Shown: positions 2,489 through 24,005 of the stretch, one piece after another
How positions within the stretch are numbered: position 1 is the stretch's first letter
How the letters are laid out: every line of letters starts with the position of its first letter
Virus record (IMG/VR): IMGVR_UViG_3300042889_001225
Location: 1-24,005 of that record
Direction: 5' to 3' (one strand)
DNA: 24,005 nt
DNA from: a virus
The notes under the pieces: model-generated
The model's database searches: none
What the model was told of the DNA's origin: nothing
The model's input: the letters and a program-made list of their open reading frames with translations, nothing else
Made by a program: the position numbers and the translations under genes

Positions 2489-3069
2489 TTGGTCAGTTGA
2501 GTGATGATAGTTGCCAGTTCACCGGCGCTCAGCGATGCTCCAGCGGTAAACTCCACGCGCCCACCTTTGATACGCCACGCTGCGGCCGTGTTGTTTGTCG
2601 GCGATGATCTCGCGGCATTTGATTGCTGCTGGATCATCCACGCCTTCTGCTCGCCCTCGGTGCGTAGCCGGTTGGGTGCGAACACCTGCGCGGCCTGTTC
2701 TTTGGTCAAGTCCTTGGCTTTGACCAAGAGAACGTCGGTGCCTTGCTCGGTGTGGACAATGAGCGCGATCGGCTCCTCGATGAATCGCTCTTGTAGCGAA
2801 TACGGGAGCTTCTGTAATCGAGCAAAGCCCGGTGACGATGTCAGCAGCAACTGAGGGTGTAGCGACTTGCGGCCCATCTGCTCGAAACGTCCGAGGATGC
2901 CAGCATTGAGTTGTGGACATTGCTGTATGATGTAGTCGTATGAATGCGGGTCTTCCTCGACCAATTCGACCAGTATCTCCCCTGCTTTGATCCATGAATC
3001 GACACCTACTTTGAATAGGTCGATAAATGCTGTAATCCTTGAGCTTTGCGATGTCAGTGTGGTATTCAT
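2485..3069 (-). CDS. Conserved-looking phage protein, unknown function
   Basis: A 194-residue soluble protein with no signal peptide or membrane segment. The N-terminal half is predicted helical, with segments AFIDLFKVGVDSWIKAGEIL and QCPQLNAGILGRFEQMGRK. It then has a short beta-like stretch (PIALIVHTEQGTDVLLVKA) and a C-terminal region (AAAWRIKGGRVEFTAG, then a helix). I do not recognise the family. It overlaps the repeat-protein gene upstream and the 47-residue gene downstream by 4 nt each. Lying between the repeat protein and the initiator, it is probably made with the replication proteins; no further role can be claimed. Confidence 0.7.
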   Translation of the reverse strand: MNTTLTSQSSRITAFIDLFKVGVDSWIKAGEILVELVEEDPHSYDYIIQQCPQLNAGILGRFEQMGRKSLHPQLLLTSSPGFARLQKLPYSLQERFIEEPIALIVHTEQGTDVLLVKAKDLTKEQAAQVFAPNRLRTEGEQKAWMIQQQSNAARSSPTNNTAAAWRIKGGRVEFTAGASLSAGELATIITQLTK

Positions 3070-3836
3070 TTGGTTTCTTTTGTTTGTGTTATTTTGGAGA
3101 TTAGTTGGGCAGCACCTACCATGATGAAAAATTGGTCGGCGGCGACTTGCTGGATAGCGTTTTGCCGATAGGCTTTCGCTCTAGCTATGTGTTCGGGCTT
3201 TTGCCGCTTAGCTATGTTTTTAGGCGATTGCCGCTTAGCTTTCTCCTTGGCTTTGCCTTCCGGCGATTGCTGATAGGCTTTCGCTCTAGCTATGTGTTCG
3301 GGCTTTTGCGAGTAGGCTTTTGCTCTAGCTATCTGTTCGGGCTTTTGATGCCAGGCTTTCTGCTTGGCTTTGTATTCCGGCTTTTGCCGGTAGGCTTTCT
3401 CCTTGGCTTTGCCTTCCGGCGATTGCAGCCAGGCTTCTCGCTTGGCTTTTAATTCTGGCGATTGCTGATAGGCTTTCGCTCTAGCTATGTATTCCGGCTC
3501 TTGCCGCTTAGCTATGTTTTCTGGCGATTGATACTTAGCTTTCCGCTTAGCTATGTTTTTAGGCGATTGCTGCCAGGCTTTCTGCTTGGCTTTGCCTTCC
3601 AGCGATTGAGAGTAGGCTTTCGCTCTAGCTATGTATTCCAGCTTTTGCTGGCGGGCTTTCTCCTTGGCTATGCGTTCTGGCGATTGCCGGTAGGCTTTCT
3701 CCTTGGCTTTGCCTTCTGGCGATTGCCGGTAGGCTTTCGCCTTGGCTTTCGCCTTGGCTTTGCGTTCCAGCTGATTCACCAACCAAGCCTCATGCTGCTC
3801 AGGTGTCCATGTATCAGATGCTTTCGGTTTTGCCAT
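3066..3836 (-). CDS. Basic 13-residue-repeat protein (KAYRQSPEGKAKE repeats)
   Basis: A 256-residue, very basic protein. A short N-terminal domain (residues 1 to 25, MAKPKASDTWTPEQHEAWLV) precedes a KAKAKAKA bridge. Then, at residues 34 to 225, come about 15 copies of a 13-residue unit of the form KAY-x-Q-S-P-E-x-x-A-K-x. Two copies are shortened to 9 residues (QEPEYIARA and QKPEHIARA), both lacking the first four positions. The C-terminus is a helical, partly hydrophobic tail (NAIQQVAADQFF, IMVGAAQLI). Lys and Arg dominate, so nucleic-acid binding is likely. The ATG at 3836 is preferred over one 20 codons earlier because a stable hairpin lies between them. Similar basic repeat proteins occur in other phages without a known function. 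The stop overlaps the next gene by 4 nt. Confidence 0.75.
   Translation of the reverse strand: MAKPKASDTWTPEQHEAWLVNQLERKAKAKAKAKAYRQSPEGKAKEKAYRQSPERIAKEKARQQKLEYIARAKAYSQSLEGKAKQKAWQQSPKNIAKRKAKYQSPENIAKRQEPEYIARAKAYQQSPELKAKREAWLQSPEGKAKEKAYRQKPEYKAKQKAWHQKPEQIARAKAYSQKPEHIARAKAYQQSPEGKAKEKAKRQSPKNIAKRQKPEHIARAKAYRQNAIQQVAADQFFIMVGAAQLISKITQTKETK
3162..3737 (-). repeat. 39-bp degenerate tandem repeat array in coding sequence
   Basis: About 15 tandem 39-bp units encode the 13-residue repeats. Units have diverged from each other but share blocks such as GCTTTCGCTCTAGCTATGT on the plus strand. Two units lack 12 bp each, keeping the frame. The array keeps the opposite strand open in long stretches, which is a by-product of the biased codons. 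Confidence 0.85.
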
Positions 3837-3863
3837 GATATATAAAAGGTTCTCACCCAGAAA

Positions 3864-3889
3864 GCCCCACCGAGTTATCCCGGTGAGGC
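3864..3889 (-). terminator. Hairpin before the repeat-protein gene (terminator-like)
   Basis: On the minus strand GCCTCACCG, an 8-nt loop and CGGTGGGGC form a 9-bp stem (one G-U pair), followed by TTTCT. It lies in a 96-nt gap, the largest in the early operon, between the single-strand-binding gene and the repeat-protein gene. The T-run is weak, so it could act as an attenuator or as an mRNA stability or translation element and not as a full terminator. Confidence 0.4.
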
Positions 3890-3932
3890 GATGCATTGTG
3901 CTTCCCTGTTTTCTGGTCCCGATCAGAAATCT

Positions 3933-7990: not shown

Positions 7991-8045
7991 GTTTTCCTTG
8001 TACTTGCTAGCATTTGAAGTTACTTAAAAGCACCCGAAAGCACTC

Positions 8046-8076
8046 TTTTAGTGGCAATAGTGGCAATTATGGCAAC
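8046..8076. promoter_or_regulatory. Integrase arm-type sites, right (P') arm
   Basis: Three boxes repeat every 9 nt: TTTTAGTGGCAA (8046 to 8057), ATAGTGGCAA (8057 to 8066) and TTATGGCAAC (8067 to 8076). They share AGTGGCAA with the three boxes left of the core. They lie just upstream of the chosen integrase ATG, so integrase binding here could also limit its own expression. Confidence 0.5.
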
Positions 8077-8091
8077 CAATTCTGGCATCAA

Positions 8092-9138
8092 ATGAGTCGT
8101 CCAAATACATTCAAACCGACGCTCACCGAAAAAGGTTGGATGGTTTCCATCGGACCATCGATGACGGCATCGGGTAACCGGGTGCGTAAATTTTTTACCA
8201 CCGAGTCTGCGGCCAAGAAATTTGCGGCCAGCGTTAAATCTCAACACGCCGCTGGCATGCGTGGCAGCATGATTCCTGCGGCCCTCGCCATCGATGCGGT
8301 GCGAGCGGCGGCGCTTCTGGAAGGCACCGGCATCACCATTTTTGAAGCGGCCTCGATGGCGGTGACCAAGTTCAACTCCTCGAGCGCAGAGTTGTTTGGC
8401 GATCGATACCTGCGGACCATGACCGCGATGGAAAATGCCTGGTCAAATTCCTACCGACTCAGCATGACCGCGATCCCTCGGTGGTTGCCTCCAGAGTTTC
8501 TACAGCGTCGGTGCCACGGCATCGACCGCGTCGCCATCGAGGCGGCGTTGCGGGTGGTCCAACCGGCGCTGAAACAGTCGTCGCTCGACATGAAATCCAC
8601 TCGGATTCTGGCAGTCGTAAATTTCCGACCTCGGCACCGTAAAGCCTCTGCGATCGAGATCCTCAGCGTGGGCCAGTGCGCTCGATTGCTGCGTGTCTGT
8701 GAGTGTGCTGCTGAGCGCCGAGTCGTTGCGCTGTTGCTCTTTGCCGGAATCCGACCCGACGCGCAGAACGGGGAGATTGGTCGCCTTGAGTGGTCGGCGA
8801 TCACTAATCAGATTTACATCTCCGCCCAGATCAGCAAGACCAGCTCGGACCGCTACATCCCGATCAGCGCTCGACTCGGTCGTCTGCTGCGCGGCCATCC
8901 GTCGTCTGGCTCAGTGTGTCCACCGAACTGGCGGCGAGCATGGCAGCGCATTCGCCGAGATGCCGGCATCAGTGACATGCACGATGTGCTGCGTCACACG
9001 TTTGCTTCTAACCATCTCGCGGCCCACGGCGAGGAAGCAACCAAGAATGCCATGGGCCACACTCAGGGATCGGTGACGCTGTTCCGTCACTACCGTCGTG
9101 CGATTTTGCCAGCCGACGGCATCAAGTTTTTTCACTGA
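8092..9138 (+). CDS. int: Tyrosine-family phage integrase
   Basis: A 348-residue tyrosine recombinase that inserts the phage at the attP tRNA core and, with the excisionase, removes it. An N-terminal arm-binding region (residues 1 to 60, with a KGWMVSIG strand and a FFTTESAAKKFAAS helix) and a core-binding helical domain (about 75 to 185) lead to the catalytic domain. Its residues are R221 (AGIRP), K249 (SKTSSDR), R301 (VLRHTFAS), H323 (MGHTQ) and the nucleophile Y334 (FRHYRR). The usual first His of box II may be H297. The ATG at 8092 is chosen because an upstream TTG frame runs through the arm-site repeats. It converges on the endolysin gene with a 7-nt overlap. Confidence 0.93.
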   Translation: MSRPNTFKPTLTEKGWMVSIGPSMTASGNRVRKFFTTESAAKKFAASVKSQHAAGMRGSMIPAALAIDAVRAAALLEGTGITIFEAASMAVTKFNSSSAELFGDRYLRTMTAMENAWSNSYRLSMTAIPRWLPPEFLQRRCHGIDRVAIEAALRVVQPALKQSSLDMKSTRILAVVNFRPRHRKASAIEILSVGQCARLLRVCECAAERRVVALLLFAGIRPDAQNGEIGRLEWSAITNQIYISAQISKTSSDRYIPISARLGRLLRGHPSSGSVCPPNWRRAWQRIRRDAGISDMHDVLRHTFASNHLAAHGEEATKNAMGHTQGSVTLFRHYRRAILPADGIKFFH

Positions 9139-9707
9139 GTTGCTTGAAAATGCTGTGCGTCGTAACCCCATTCGACCGCCGCAGAAATCCATCCTTGGCG
9201 GTAGAAACATTCGATGATCTCGATCGGCATGTTTGATCGCATCGGCCATGAGTCGCGGAATCCGTTAGTGCTTGGTGCCAGGTCGATCGCAGCACCGTAG
9301 GCATGCAGCGACCATGTGACGCCGCCACGCTTTTGCCTGAAATTAAAACACCCACCAAAGTCGCTGGCGATGCGCATGATCGATTGATCGCTGCCGTGCC
9401 TCGATTTAATGTCCTCCAGGATCCGCATGAGCGAGTGAGCGCAGTCCTCGTGAACACGGGTGGTGGAAACCGCGTTGCCTTGGTAGTAGGTCGGAAACGG
9501 AAACTTAATTTTGTCGAGATTAGCCTCATTGCCCGGCTGCCCGTAGAATGCTTGGAGCGCCGACTGAGACTGTAGCGGCCATGGCGATGGGTGCGGCATG
9601 AGAGCATGCACGCGAGCGCGACACGCAGATATCGACCTCGGCCCCCAGAATCCATCCGGCTCGGCTCCCACGCGCCGCTGTAGCGCCACGATCTCGGAAT
9701 GCACCAT
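9132..9707 (-). CDS. Endolysin: peptidoglycan-binding plus M15-type peptidase
   Basis: A 191-residue endolysin that probably cleaves the peptide part of peptidoglycan to release progeny. Residues 5 to 30 (IVALQRRVGAEPDGFWGPRS) form a short peptidoglycan-binding motif. The peptidase domain has the zinc-site motif SLHAYGAAID (H135, D142) and the final YDAQHFQ (H186), the pattern of M15 D-alanyl-D-alanine-type peptidases. No signal peptide is present, so a holin should release it; small membrane proteins lie just upstream. Its 3' end overlaps the convergent integrase gene by 7 nt. Family fit is good; bond specificity is not known. Confidence 0.9.
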   Translation of the reverse strand: MVHSEIVALQRRVGAEPDGFWGPRSISACRARVHALMPHPSPWPLQSQSALQAFYGQPGNEANLDKIKFPFPTYYQGNAVSTTRVHEDCAHSLMRILEDIKSRHGSDQSIMRIASDFGGCFNFRQKRGGVTWSLHAYGAAIDLAPSTNGFRDSWPMRSNMPIEIIECFYRQGWISAAVEWGYDAQHFQATQ

Positions 9708-9709
9708 GA

Positions 9710-9898
9710 CTATTTACTGGCGTGGTAATCAACCTCGATGGCGCCGGTGGTCGGCTCGTACCGGACGCGGCCATGCTCGCCTATAAACTCAAACGCGCCG
9801 CTTGATGGAGCGCATGACGTGCAGAGCGACATCAGTGCCACGATCGCACCGAGCGCGATCAGAATCCAGATCCCTGGTAGTGCTGAGTCGGTGATCAT
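9710..9898 (-). CDS. Small membrane-anchored or lipoprotein-like lysis protein
   Basis: A 62-residue protein: a hydrophobic segment (GIWILIALGAIVALMSL), then CTSCAP and a polar C-terminal part (EHGRVRYEPTTGAIEVDY). The two cysteines right after the helix suggest a lipoprotein, but the box is not classical. It lies between a holin-like gene and the endolysin, which is where spanin-type or accessory lysis proteins occur. The start overlaps the holin-like stop by 4 nt. A spanin role is a guess; the membrane anchor is clear. Confidence 0.65.
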   Translation of the reverse strand: MITDSALPGIWILIALGAIVALMSLCTSCAPSSGAFEFIGEHGRVRYEPTTGAIEVDYHASK

Positions 9899-21283: not shown

Positions 21284-21958
21284 TTAGACGGCAGGCTTGC
21301 TGATGCCCCACCGTCGCTGCCAGTGACTTAGGGAGTGGTTTTCAAGAGGTGCCGGTGGTGGCGTTTCCTCTGGTTGAAAATCTTTGATGAGAGTGGTGAT
21401 CGAGCGGACATCGACCTCGGTGTCCTCGTAAGCCGGGTAGGTCACCGGCGAGACATCGTAGAGGCGTGACACTTTGTTGATGGTGCGCTCGAAGACGGTA
21501 GCGCCGTTCTCGTCGCGGGATTCCACCCAACTTTGTCCGTCCTTTGAGACGGTGAAAGAGAACGAGCTTTGATCGATGTCACCGCGTCGAAGAGAGACAA
21601 GAAGGTCGCGACCGACTTGCGTGTCCGGTGCCTCAAACATGTAGGTCAGACCCACGTCATCGATGCCAAGCGTGAGTGTCCCTTCACCGTTCTTTGACCG
21701 TGCGAGGATCATGTCTGCCTCGTGGTTGAAGAGTGCGCGGACATCATCTAGCAGCACATCGTCGAATGCACCTGGTGCGATCGTTTCGTAGAATTGCCTG
21801 TTTGCTTCACCGAGGTTGCCCGAGCGCGAATTGAATTTTGCCGCATAGCCGAAGATGATGTTGCTCTGCTCGCTGTCGCCCTCGGCGCGTAGCTCGATGG
21901 GTGCTGTGAGTCGGCGTGACTCGCGGCCTCCGATGGTGATGGTTTGTAAAGATTTCAT
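21284..21958 (-). CDS. Prohead protease (family S78-like)
   Basis: A 224-residue serine protease that matures the prohead by cutting the capsid delta domain and itself. The catalytic pattern is visible: His in ALFNHEADMILAR (H79) and Ser in RGDIDQSSFSF (S132). The usual beta core is FGYAAKFN near the start and the YDVSPVTYPAYEDTEV segment near residue 180, then a Pro-rich tail (EETPPPAPLENH). The ATG at 21958 overlaps the portal stop by 4 nt; an in-frame reading further up is inside the portal gene. Confidence 0.9.
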   Translation of the reverse strand: MKSLQTITIGGRESRRLTAPIELRAEGDSEQSNIIFGYAAKFNSRSGNLGEANRQFYETIAPGAFDDVLLDDVRALFNHEADMILARSKNGEGTLTLGIDDVGLTYMFEAPDTQVGRDLLVSLRRGDIDQSSFSFTVSKDGQSWVESRDENGATVFERTINKVSRLYDVSPVTYPAYEDTEVDVRSITTLIKDFQPEETPPPAPLENHSLSHWQRRWGISKPAV

Positions 21959-23265
21959 GGTGCCTCGGGTGCGGGTTCGGTGGCCTTCGCTTGTGCGGCT
22001 CCACCCGTGTTGTTGAATGGCAGTGCGTAGTCGTCGCCGCCGTCTGTTGGTGCGATGCGGCGCTCGTCGATGCGCTCGCGGATGTCGTTGACCGAGTAGA
22101 CGCCGATGCCGCGCATCGTCTGGAAATAAGCCGCTTTGGATGCGAGGTCGGCATTCGCCAAGGCATCGCGGTCGAATCGGAAATAGAATCCCGACTGCTG
22201 CTCTTGAGTGGTGAGCAATGTCATGGCCATCGACTGCTCCCACGCGACTAGGTGCGGATCCAAGCAGTTGTTGAGGAATCCGAGCGTCTGCTGCTCGATG
22301 CCAGTCCCCCATGTGGTCGAGGCCGTCGAGTCGCCGACCATGAATGCCGGGATGCCATAAAACCTTGCGATCTCCTGCAACTCGAAGCGGCGGGATCCGA
22401 GAAACTCGGCGTCGACCATGCTCATGCCGTTGGTCTGTTTGAAGTCAAATCCGCCGTGCATGATCGGGACGCGGCCAGCATTTTTTGCACCGGCGGTGTT
22501 GCGGTCCCACTCGGTCCGAGCGTCTTCCATCTGCTTCGATGAAAGCGCCTGTGGTGCGACTAGGTAGCCCGGGAAGTGGGTGCCTTCGCGCATCAGTTTT
22601 CCGGCGGCCTCGGTCTGTGCCAGGCATGTGCCGATTGACTCGCGCAGCATGCGGATCGGTGAGACGCCCTCGATGCCGTCGCGGCTGATACCTCGCACAT
22701 GTAGTATGTCGTGGCGGGTGAGGATCTCGCGGGTGCCTTTGACCTCGTACGAAATATAGCACTCGCCATTTGGACGCGACACCTTGCGAGGTGTGACATC
22801 GTACGGGTTGATCCATTGGATCGCCCTTGGCGCACCAAACGGGTCACGGTAGACCCGAGCGTAGCCATTGCCGCCAAGGCCTTTGGATACTTCCATCAGT
22901 TGGCGTAGCTCAAATGTAGTGTGCAGCTCGGACGGGATGCCACCGATGCACCGAATGCCAGGGTGATCGATGACTTCCAATGGTCCGTCGGGTGTGTCGC
23001 GGTATAGATAAATCGGGAGCTTCGCGATCATGTCGGCCAGCAGTCGGACGCAGGCCGTAACAGCGGCGACGTTCAGCGCAGTGTTCTCAGTAACAACTGC
23101 ACCGGACGCCGCCGGAGTGCTGATAAGGTGCAGGATGCCGTTTTGTAAGTCATTGCTAGAACGCGACTCACGTTGGTTTTTGCCACGAAATGACAAGCCA
23201 GTCATCGCGCTGATATTCGCGAATGATAGTACTCCCCTGCTCTTGCTAAGTATGTTTCGCAACAT
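21955..23265 (-). CDS. Portal protein, HK97 family
   Basis: A 436-residue portal, the dodecameric ring through which DNA enters and leaves the capsid. Typical segments: VAAVTACVRLLADMIAKLPI near residue 70, LRQLMEVSKGLGGNGYARVY, RHDILHVRGISRDGIEGVSP and the conserved RRFELQEIARFYGIPAFMVGD. The C-terminal crown region ends in a low-complexity tail (AQAKATEPAPEAP). It is slightly longer than HK97 portal. It overlaps the protease by 4 nt. Upstream is the divergent lipoprotein gene; the gap shows no convincing leftward promoter, so transcription may read in from the terminase side. Confidence 0.92.
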   Translation of the reverse strand: MLRNILSKSRGVLSFANISAMTGLSFRGKNQRESRSSNDLQNGILHLISTPAASGAVVTENTALNVAAVTACVRLLADMIAKLPIYLYRDTPDGPLEVIDHPGIRCIGGIPSELHTTFELRQLMEVSKGLGGNGYARVYRDPFGAPRAIQWINPYDVTPRKVSRPNGECYISYEVKGTREILTRHDILHVRGISRDGIEGVSPIRMLRESIGTCLAQTEAAGKLMREGTHFPGYLVAPQALSSKQMEDARTEWDRNTAGAKNAGRVPIMHGGFDFKQTNGMSMVDAEFLGSRRFELQEIARFYGIPAFMVGDSTASTTWGTGIEQQTLGFLNNCLDPHLVAWEQSMAMTLLTTQEQQSGFYFRFDRDALANADLASKAAYFQTMRGIGVYSVNDIRERIDERRIAPTDGGDDYALPFNNTGGAAQAKATEPAPEAP

Positions 23266-23293
23266 TCTTGGACGCTATGGTGTATTAAAATTA

Positions 23294-23322
23294 TAGACTT
23301 GTCAAGCTTATAGCATTATAAC
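23294..23322 (+). promoter_or_regulatory. Promoter candidate for the lipoprotein cargo gene
   Basis: TAGACT (23294 to 23299) and TATAAC (23317 to 23322) are 17 nt apart, with 4 of 6 and 5 of 6 consensus positions. The predicted start of transcription falls at about the ATG at 23329, so the message may be leaderless. This would let a lysogen express the gene independently of late transcription. Confidence 0.5.
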
Positions 23323-23328
23323 ACAGGT

Positions 23329-23715
23329 ATGAAAAAATTATTGGCGCTATGTTTTCTCGTGGTCGGGTGTTCGACAACGCCGAAGAATCCCGAAAAATAT
23401 GTAGAATGGGAAAACAACTCGTGCTTGCCCACGGCGATTACCATGCGGCATGGGTTGAGAAACTCGACGAAGTGGTCCGAGGTTTTGCTGTACCAATACA
23501 CATCTTTGAAGACTGGCGAAATGAAAGGTCACGCCGTCTGTGCATACATTTACCCGGTCGGGTCCAATAAACTCTGGGTGTATGACTACGAAGGAAGCAC
23601 CAGAATCAAAGCCTACATCAATGACCCGATGATGATTGCCCAACTTGCCGAGGTCGCCCGAGGTCGCCTACACCACCAAGTGTCTGAGGCTGAGTATTTA
23701 AAAGACAAAGAATGA
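23329..23715 (+). CDS. Lipoprotein cargo gene, possible papain-like fold
   Basis: A 128-residue protein on the plus strand, opposite to the late operon, between portal and terminase. It has a lipoprotein signal (MKKLLALCFLVVGC, lipobox VVGC with C14), so it should be anchored in the envelope. The mature part has a Cys, His, Asp order: C32 in NSCLPTA, H68 in KGHAVCAYIY and D86 in LWVYDYEGS. This resembles papain-like or transglutaminase-like cysteine-peptidase folds, but only by motif spacing. It has its own promoter candidate. The 3' end overlaps the terminase end by 18 nt. An envelope-directed moron, for example for superinfection exclusion, is a plausible but untested role. Confidence 0.75.
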   Translation: MKKLLALCFLVVGCSTTPKNPEKYVEWENNSCLPTAITMRHGLRNSTKWSEVLLYQYTSLKTGEMKGHAVCAYIYPVGSNKLWVYDYEGSTRIKAYINDPMMIAQLAEVARGRLHHQVSEAEYLKDKE

Positions 23716-24005
23716 TCCAGCGACGTCTTCCGGTCTGGTCATCGCTCTACCTATAGCCATGAGCGCTGCGACCACTGGGTCGATTTTGTTTTGCGCGGTG
23801 TCCTTGTTTGGGTACACATTGTCCTTGCAGTCGTAGCGGCCGGTGACGTTACCGATCGCCCAGGCTAGTACCGGATCACCATCGTGGATGATGCGGCCGC
23901 TGCGGATGAGTGCGTCAAGTTGCTTCATCGGCTCGGACATGGTCAGCACCGTGTTCCTATACTCGACAACGGGAATGCCCTCGCGTTGTAGCGCTGGGAA
24001 AACTC
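23698..24005 (-). CDS. Terminase large subunit, C-terminal part (cut by window)
   Basis: The last 101 codons of the large terminase, which drives DNA packaging. The part seen belongs to the nuclease domain: ALQREGIPVVEYRNTVLTMS, then KQLDALIRSGRIIHDGDPVL, AWAIGNVT, a YPNKDTAQNKIDPVVAALMA end with the conserved K-IDP-VVA pattern, and a final VAGSFFVF. The ATPase domain lies beyond the right edge. It overlaps the convergent lipoprotein gene by 18 nt. Confidence 0.9.
   Translation of the reverse strand, partial: VFPALQREGIPVVEYRNTVLTMSEPMKQLDALIRSGRIIHDGDPVLAWAIGNVTGRYDCKDNVYPNKDTAQNKIDPVVAALMAIGRAMTRPEDVAGSFFVF

Follow-up and report, generated by a model that had tools for sequence, protein, structure and literature searches.

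The window, by which we mean the whole stretch of 24,005 nucleotides analysed here (positions 1 to 24,005 of IMG/VR virus record IMGVR_UViG_3300042889_001225), carries near its right end a small plus-strand gene between two minus-strand genes. The latter encode the portal protein (21955-23265; Pfam Phage_portal, 3.6e-81) and the C-terminal part of TerL (23698-24003, cut by the window end; Pfam TerL_nuclease, 1.6e-17; phrog_2699, 3e-29). The plus-strand gene (23329-23715) has relatives and encodes a protein of 128 residues; it overlaps the end of the TerL gene tail to tail by 18 nt, and its G+C content is 48%, against 53% for the window and 59% for the portal gene. A preliminary description of this DNA had reported the reversed strand and the overlap, both of which are confirmed here. 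The end coordinate given there, 23715, is also correct, whereas its start, 23294, is the first base of a promoter candidate and the CDS begins at 23329.

The protein opens with a predicted signal peptide (23329-23370, plus strand, as for all features of the gene) that ends in the lipobox VVGC (V11-V12-G13-C14), C14 (codon 23368-23370) being the predicted lipidated residue, with Ser at +2. Further on lie the predicted nucleophile C32 (23422-23424) in the motif NSCLPTAI, the predicted catalytic H68 (23530-23532) in GHAV and the predicted third residue D86 (23584-23586) in LWVYDYEGS, so that lipobox and Cys-His-Asp residues stand where they had been claimed. Because C14, C32, H68 and D86 are kept in all 64 rows of the family alignment described below, the ORF is, judged by its sequence, a real gene, and the lipobox together with C14 supports its product as an envelope lipoprotein.

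The gene had also been credited with a promoter of its own. The hexamers TAGACT and TATAAC, 17 nt apart at 23294-23322 on the plus strand, can be read by eye and score 9/12, but the stricter scan does not list them; three other promoter matches were found in 23100-24005, with 0.9 expected. At the position of the second hexamer, the relatives L002, L003 and L011 read TATAAT and L001 reads TATAAC. The sequence is consistent with an almost leaderless start of the gene, although it does not prove it.

A near sister phage, L388, lacks the lipoprotein gene at the TerL-portal site. Its match to the window is 96.3% across 4,658 bases towards portal and 94.8% across 305 bases towards TerL; its portal protein is 99% identical, the last 101 residues of TerL are 100% identical, and its portal start lies 56 bases past the TerL stop. 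The blastn matches stop at 23316 and resume at 23701, leaving a cassette of about 384 bp (23317-23700) unmatched in L388, with breakpoints that a global alignment shifts by a few bases. This cassette holds TATAAC and a few bases, then the lipoprotein gene without its last five codons, which fall in DNA matching L388; the first hexamer of the promoter candidate likewise lies in DNA common to both phages, and the second inside the cassette. Two phages with portal proteins 62-63% identical to that of the window carry something else at the junction, namely a Methyltransf_24-like ORF (L392, 2671-3237) and several small ORFs (L391, 1060-3340). Since the junction is empty in L388 and differently filled in L392 and L391, it is an accessory site, and the lipoprotein gene is present-or-absent cargo that differs even between near-identical phages. 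The empty site in L388 bears out the proposal of moron-type cargo.

Elsewhere in the window, an ORF at 8014-9138 is tyrosine-recombinase-like (Pfam E 3e-5; 24.3 bits, below the cut-off of 27.1), from which the phage is probably temperate. The endolysin gene (9132-9707) lies about 13.6 kb from the lipoprotein gene. Beside it, a minus-strand ORF of 62 codons (9710-9898), recognised by eye, has a hydrophobic stretch and a Cys (LCTSCAPS) and is a possible small spanin-like lipoprotein. Also on the minus strand, 3066-3896 encode a 276-aa protein of Lys/Ala/Gln-rich repeats (KAKAYRQSPEG-type), with repeat periods of 39, 78, 117 and 300 bases in the DNA. A 27.9-kb relative (L001/L120) matches the right end of the window (23698-24005) and, about 2.1 kb later, its left end (1-418), in the order DnaB, HNH, a 131-aa ORF where TerS is expected, TerL, lipoprotein and portal. 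As this relative joins both ends of the window via about 2.1 kb, the window may represent a phage genome of some 26 kb, cut open and without most of TerL and its neighbour.

Two scans of IMG/VR yielded 11 and 16 close relatives, respectively, and distant ones came from a search with a degenerate pattern spanning the His and Asp motifs. The sequences so found are no evidence of conservation, since the pattern fixed G67, H68, A69, V70, Y85, D86 and G89 and an expression then required C-L/M-PTAI. An alignment of 20 sequences (A2) led to 122 IMG/VR relatives, found by CLPTAI[TA][MF] or G[SEK]N[KQ]LW[VAT]Y, neither of which fixes H68 or D86; a later filter, C.P.A[IL], removed only L054, a fragment without that region. 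The best 80 of these 122 represent 64 distinct sequences, and with L054 dropped the alignment has 64 rows, i.e., 63 distinct relatives and the window protein. Searching with 63 sequences (A3, from which the truncated L041 was left out) gave 136 stretches encoding relatives, the best 80 of which were largely repeats of the A2 loci and were counted once. Identity to the window protein is 82-97% in the closest relatives and goes down to 42% among the A3 sequences.

None of the 63 homologues has lost C32, H68 or D86, a loss that would have spoken against the proposed triad. Also invariant in the 64 rows are P18, N20, N30, P34, A36, I37, L43, V52, G78, N80, W83, Y85, G89, S90 and A104. A simple lipobox expression matched 60/63 relatives, with lipoboxes such as LAGC, LASC and LSAC, and the remaining three read HASC (two) and SVAC. 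For the mature part, dN/dS was tried against ten relatives, with dS incomputable for five; the values are 0.13 (L001), 0.05 (L002), 0.09 (L004), 0.06 (L016) and 0.29 (L188, dS 1.6), with dS near saturation for L004, L016 and L188. These estimates show purifying selection against near relatives.

Three tblastn queries of 50,697 GenBank phage records gave no relative with an E value of 1 or below. A single plasmid match (tblastn, E 0.9, one of two queries) was taken as chance. Nine bacterial loci from a genome scan (L026-L034) were rejected as well; they encode large lipoproteins, presumably SusD-like, that share little with the family beyond WVYDYEG. A search of 198 genomes from one phylum outside Pseudomonadota, that of a Labilibaculum locus, found no member, though it had no positive control. 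The window protein has no match in Pfam, NCBIfam or PADLOC and two weak ones in PHROGs (E 0.074 and 0.16), and we recognised no description of the family in the literature searched, which covered few subscription papers. By these profile comparisons the family appears to fall outside curated models, with no convincing Pfam, NCBIfam or PHROG match, and annotation with these resources would miss it.

The locus counts that follow refer to 64 distinct loci from the best 80 of the 122 relatives. They comprise 30 with T4-like or associated markers, 7 of a terminase type, 5 of a lysis/phosphoesterase type, 3 of the window type and 19 others, where a locus counts as T4-like if any part of the stretch retrieved matches RNA ligase or two unnamed neighbours, and the lysis/phosphoesterase group includes L188 on a weak match and leaves L182 under the others. 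RNA ligase-like genes (phrog_562 in one example) occur in 25/64 loci, in 23 of which they are at most 730 bases away. One locus, L187, has a baseplate hub gene (phrog_1922), and gp23 was found in 4 of 50 carrier contigs.

The closest relatives (82-97% identity) already occupy three settings. The first is the TerL-portal junction in phages of the window type. In the second, the gene is next to the TerS and TerL genes of different terminase families (phrog_57/phrog_15), either between the two (L015) or just before both (L022). In the third (L018/L019), it follows genes for an endolysin, an HNH protein and a metallophosphoesterase. The gene is thus present in several phage lineages with different terminases, and we regard it as horizontally exchanged cargo common to many unrelated uncultured phages.

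Placement next to lysis genes recurs beyond the closest relatives. In L148, the lipoprotein gene overlaps each of its two neighbours by 4 bases, the one on one side encoding a holin (phrog_3427, 9.8e-28), that on the other an endolysin (phrog_17001, 1.6e-24); an endolysin gene lies within 1.7 kb after it in L182, L188 and L177 and before it in L123 and L124. As the last two are near copies, the lysis placements amount to five settings. This link was noticed from the neighbours, and the endolysin search is no unbiased test of it because its queries were mostly those same neighbours; the window's own endolysin, used as a query, brought up no further locus. The window and most of the 64 loci have no detected lysis gene beside the lipoprotein gene. 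In L177, a second small lipoprotein-like gene (8403-8687, by eye) lies between the family member and the endolysin gene downstream. Genes of one metallophosphoesterase family (phrog_1649 in one example) occur in 23/64 loci, and a gene of another such family (phrog_221) overlaps the lipoprotein gene in L019; the enzyme is a possible functional partner of the lipoprotein.

The gene had been proposed to be expressed in the lysogen. The analysis does not support this: just 2 of the 50 carrier contigs showed an integrase (the contigs are not all independent, exclude the window and are in many cases fragments, and a divergent integrase could have escaped detection), T4-like or associated markers occur in 30 of the 64 loci, and several relatives lie in lysis modules. 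A lysogeny-only role is disfavoured, and left unsupported, by the integrase count.

An AlphaFold2 model of the window protein, built with A2, reached a pLDDT of 77.1 and a pTM of 0.69, with ten-residue blocks from residue 31 onward at 83-94 and the last block at 78; an earlier model from 10 close sequences (pLDDT 44) was discarded. The predicted elements are helix 32-43, strands 49-59, 65-74, 81-86 and 89-95, helix 100-110 and strand 116-123, a helix-strand order that matches papain-like enzymes. C32 is placed at the N-terminus of the first helix, and H68 (strand 65-74) and D86 (at the end of strand 81-86) on consecutive strands joined by the turn 75-80, where they would be neighbours if the strands pair as a hairpin. 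In the model, the Cys thus stands at the N-terminus of the core helix and the His and Asp on following strands, as is characteristic of the class, and the three residues lie on the elements that bear the triad in this fold, so that the predicted fold does not speak against the triad put forward in the preliminary description.

In Foldseek searches of the PDB, the best rows are vasohibins (E 0.046, probability 0.98) and LapG (E 0.052, probability 0.91), no match reaching E 0.001; lower rows of low probability belong to unrelated folds (a viral matrix protein, a relaxase complex and a PH domain). VIA-align gave Z 6.9 for vasohibin 6j4o_A (3.4 Å over 106 residues), 5.8 for SseI 4g29 (3.4 Å over 92) and 5.0 for LapG 4fgo (3.6 Å over 94), with 38 of 963 chains at Z of at least 5 and none at 8, below which, as the tool warns, scores can reflect a common arrangement. 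In most of the rows for vasohibins, 120 residues are superposed at about 9 Å. Judged by their names, the 50 VIA-align rows listed are presumably all papain-like enzymes. The structure matches listed include vasohibins, LapG, SseI, arylamine N-acetyltransferases (NAT), N-terminal Gln amidase and PeiW, and PMC10318531 assigns vasohibins, C93/LapG, C96/Transglut_core3, PeiW, SseI, NAT and Nt-Gln amidase to cluster III of the papain-like enzymes. A viral structure library had nothing at E 0.001 or better, its best row being insulinase-named (E 0.0028), with a COG3672 transglutaminase-like phage protein at 0.074. Each of these scores is modest, yet one superfamily dominates among the matches to the predicted model.

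Separate but weak support comes from sequence. Two PDB sequence searches produced three weak matches each (best E 0.48, and 0.025 to ThreeFoil). PF13471 (Transglut_core3) is weakly matched by 9/63 members, with a best E of 0.002; because L182, at E 0.023, scores 15 bits against a cut-off of 26, over residues 27-57 only, we infer that the best match also stays below the cut-off. More members (16/63, best E 0.0041) match DUF4995, in the two inspected over the signal region. In hhalign, the family reached 48.6% against PF13471 (23 sequences), Cys on Cys and His on His, 18.2% against PF13529 (C39-like), with the same residues paired, 0.8% against PF01841 and 0.1% against PF00877; a reversed profile gave 0.1-0.4% (0.1% against PF13471) and the related pair PF13471-PF01841 89.6%. 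PF06035 is not among the 17 families matched by the 63 members at E up to 10 and has no match in a six-frame search of the window, and PF00877 is matched by none of the 63 members. The proposal of a papain- or transglutaminase-like Cys-His-Asp enzyme is supported by prediction, through the model, the structure matches, the invariant triad and hhalign. By predicted fold and motif, the protein appears to be a transglutaminase-like cysteine enzyme whose membership of PF06035, PF13471 or PF00877 the profiles do not support. Because PF13529 also aligns Cys and His and the pair PF13471-PF01841 far outscores the family, any assignment to a subclass is tentative, and a C39-like relative is a possible alternative.

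With such a fold and a lipid anchor, the enzyme would be expected to work on the envelope, whether to help lysis, to exclude further phages or to remodel the surface. Our preferred reading, to which we give a probability of roughly 45%, is an outer-membrane-anchored transglutaminase-like amidase or peptidase that acts on the envelope of the infected cell, most likely late in the lytic cycle. We infer its periplasmic location, catalysis, time of action and part in lysis along the following lines. The lipoprotein would leave the cytoplasm through Sec and receive its lipid at C14. With Ser at +2, its destination would, by a rule that comes from enterobacteria, probably be the inner surface of the outer membrane. 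The tethered domain of about 95 residues would be a minimal papain-fold enzyme whose C32-H68-D86 cuts or transamidates an amide bond in an envelope substrate. In the lytic cycle it may serve as a late accessory, e.g., by weakening a protein or peptide connection that holds outer membrane and cell wall together, which would help lysis. A late role is favoured because lysis modules contain the gene in several lineages and an integrase was found in few carriers. The family offers a testable candidate for enzymatic envelope attack during infection.

Superinfection exclusion or receptor modification, in which the tethered enzyme would cut or mask an outer-membrane receptor or its assembly and shield the infected (or lysogenic) cell, seems to us a doubtful explanation but a serious rival, because the window gene is far from its endolysin gene and on its own strand. 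A small lipoprotein of outer-membrane type, carried or missing in near-identical phages and preceded by a promoter candidate, would suit such a task; the invariant triad, however, suggests catalysis, several lineages have relatives within lysis modules, and no exclusion family is convincingly matched (PHROG Cor in 2/63 members, best 0.026).

We think it unlikely that the protein remodels the surface in the manner of HvyA and LapG, as a periplasmic transglutaminase-like enzyme that blocks capsule assembly or frees an adhesin, so that the host loses its coat or leaves the biofilm. The fold class is the same. HvyA, which depends on its catalytic residues even though D241N works, prevents capsulation, and Caulobacter that has lost it is insensitive to the T4-like phage phiCr30 (PMC4241560). 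Enzymes of this kind may also be exchanged among phages: in a river single-virus study, BTLCP ranked first among the AMGs by frequency, which suggests its exchange between virus clusters (PMC11283719). Against this stand the missing PF06035 matches and the lack of a lipidation signal in HvyA (PMC4241560).

Rather improbable, in our estimate, is a far-reaching version of the preferred reading, i.e., that this new outer-membrane-tethered amidase family is a late weapon common to uncultured phages, which severs links between outer membrane and cell wall (or other envelope links), adds in this way an enzymatic step to Gram-negative lysis that supplements or replaces spanins, and passes between unrelated tailed phages as a cassette of the gene alone. 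A non-catalytic lipoprotein, e.g., an o-spanin or structural factor with the triad kept for some other reason, is very improbable: some members do lie in lysis modules, and there are weak matches to Rz-like spanin PHROGs (phrog_812 in 9/63 members, best 0.085; phrog_3198 in one, 0.0093) and to NCBIfam P2_Rz1 (2/10 members, 0.037), but the phrog_812 match of the window protein (E 0.16) is confined to the signal peptide (residues 2-22), the predicted model has a folded alpha-beta domain and the triad is invariant.

Among known systems, T5 Llp and Cor are likewise small phage-encoded envelope lipoproteins, which exclude without an enzyme and have no known catalytic domain, whereas the window protein bears a triad in a predicted domain and has no convincing match to their families. 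NlpC/P60 lipoproteins such as MepS/Spr have a small papain-fold domain that a lipid tethers to the outer membrane, as predicted here, but their triad is Cys-His-His, while our third residue is Asp in all 64 rows, and PF00877 profiles do not match. The best sequence lead is Transglut_core3/C96, the family of the lasso-peptide leader peptidase McjB, a cytoplasmic maturation enzyme, whose catalytic Cys and His co-align with those of our family, although the match stays below the Pfam cut-off where bits were seen. With BTLCP/Peptidase_C93 (LapG, HvyA), the window protein has in common an export signal (here a lipobox) and the Cys-His-Asp order, with spacings of 36 and 18 residues compared with 34 and 15 in HvyA (C192-H226-D241), and its model weakly matches the fold of LapG. 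It differs in the lack of PF06035 matches among the 63 members, in its size, about 95 residues after the signal region against the 272 of HvyA, and in its predicted lipid anchor, HvyA being without a lipidation signal (PMC4241560). That transglutaminase-like proteinases are probably exchanged phage genes is already known from PMC11283719; new, as far as our searches show, are the family itself, the combination of lipid anchor and invariant triad, the compact cassette of the empty-site pair and the placements in lysis modules. The family links a defined triad and a lipid anchor to a very compact form of cargo exchange across phages with different terminases.
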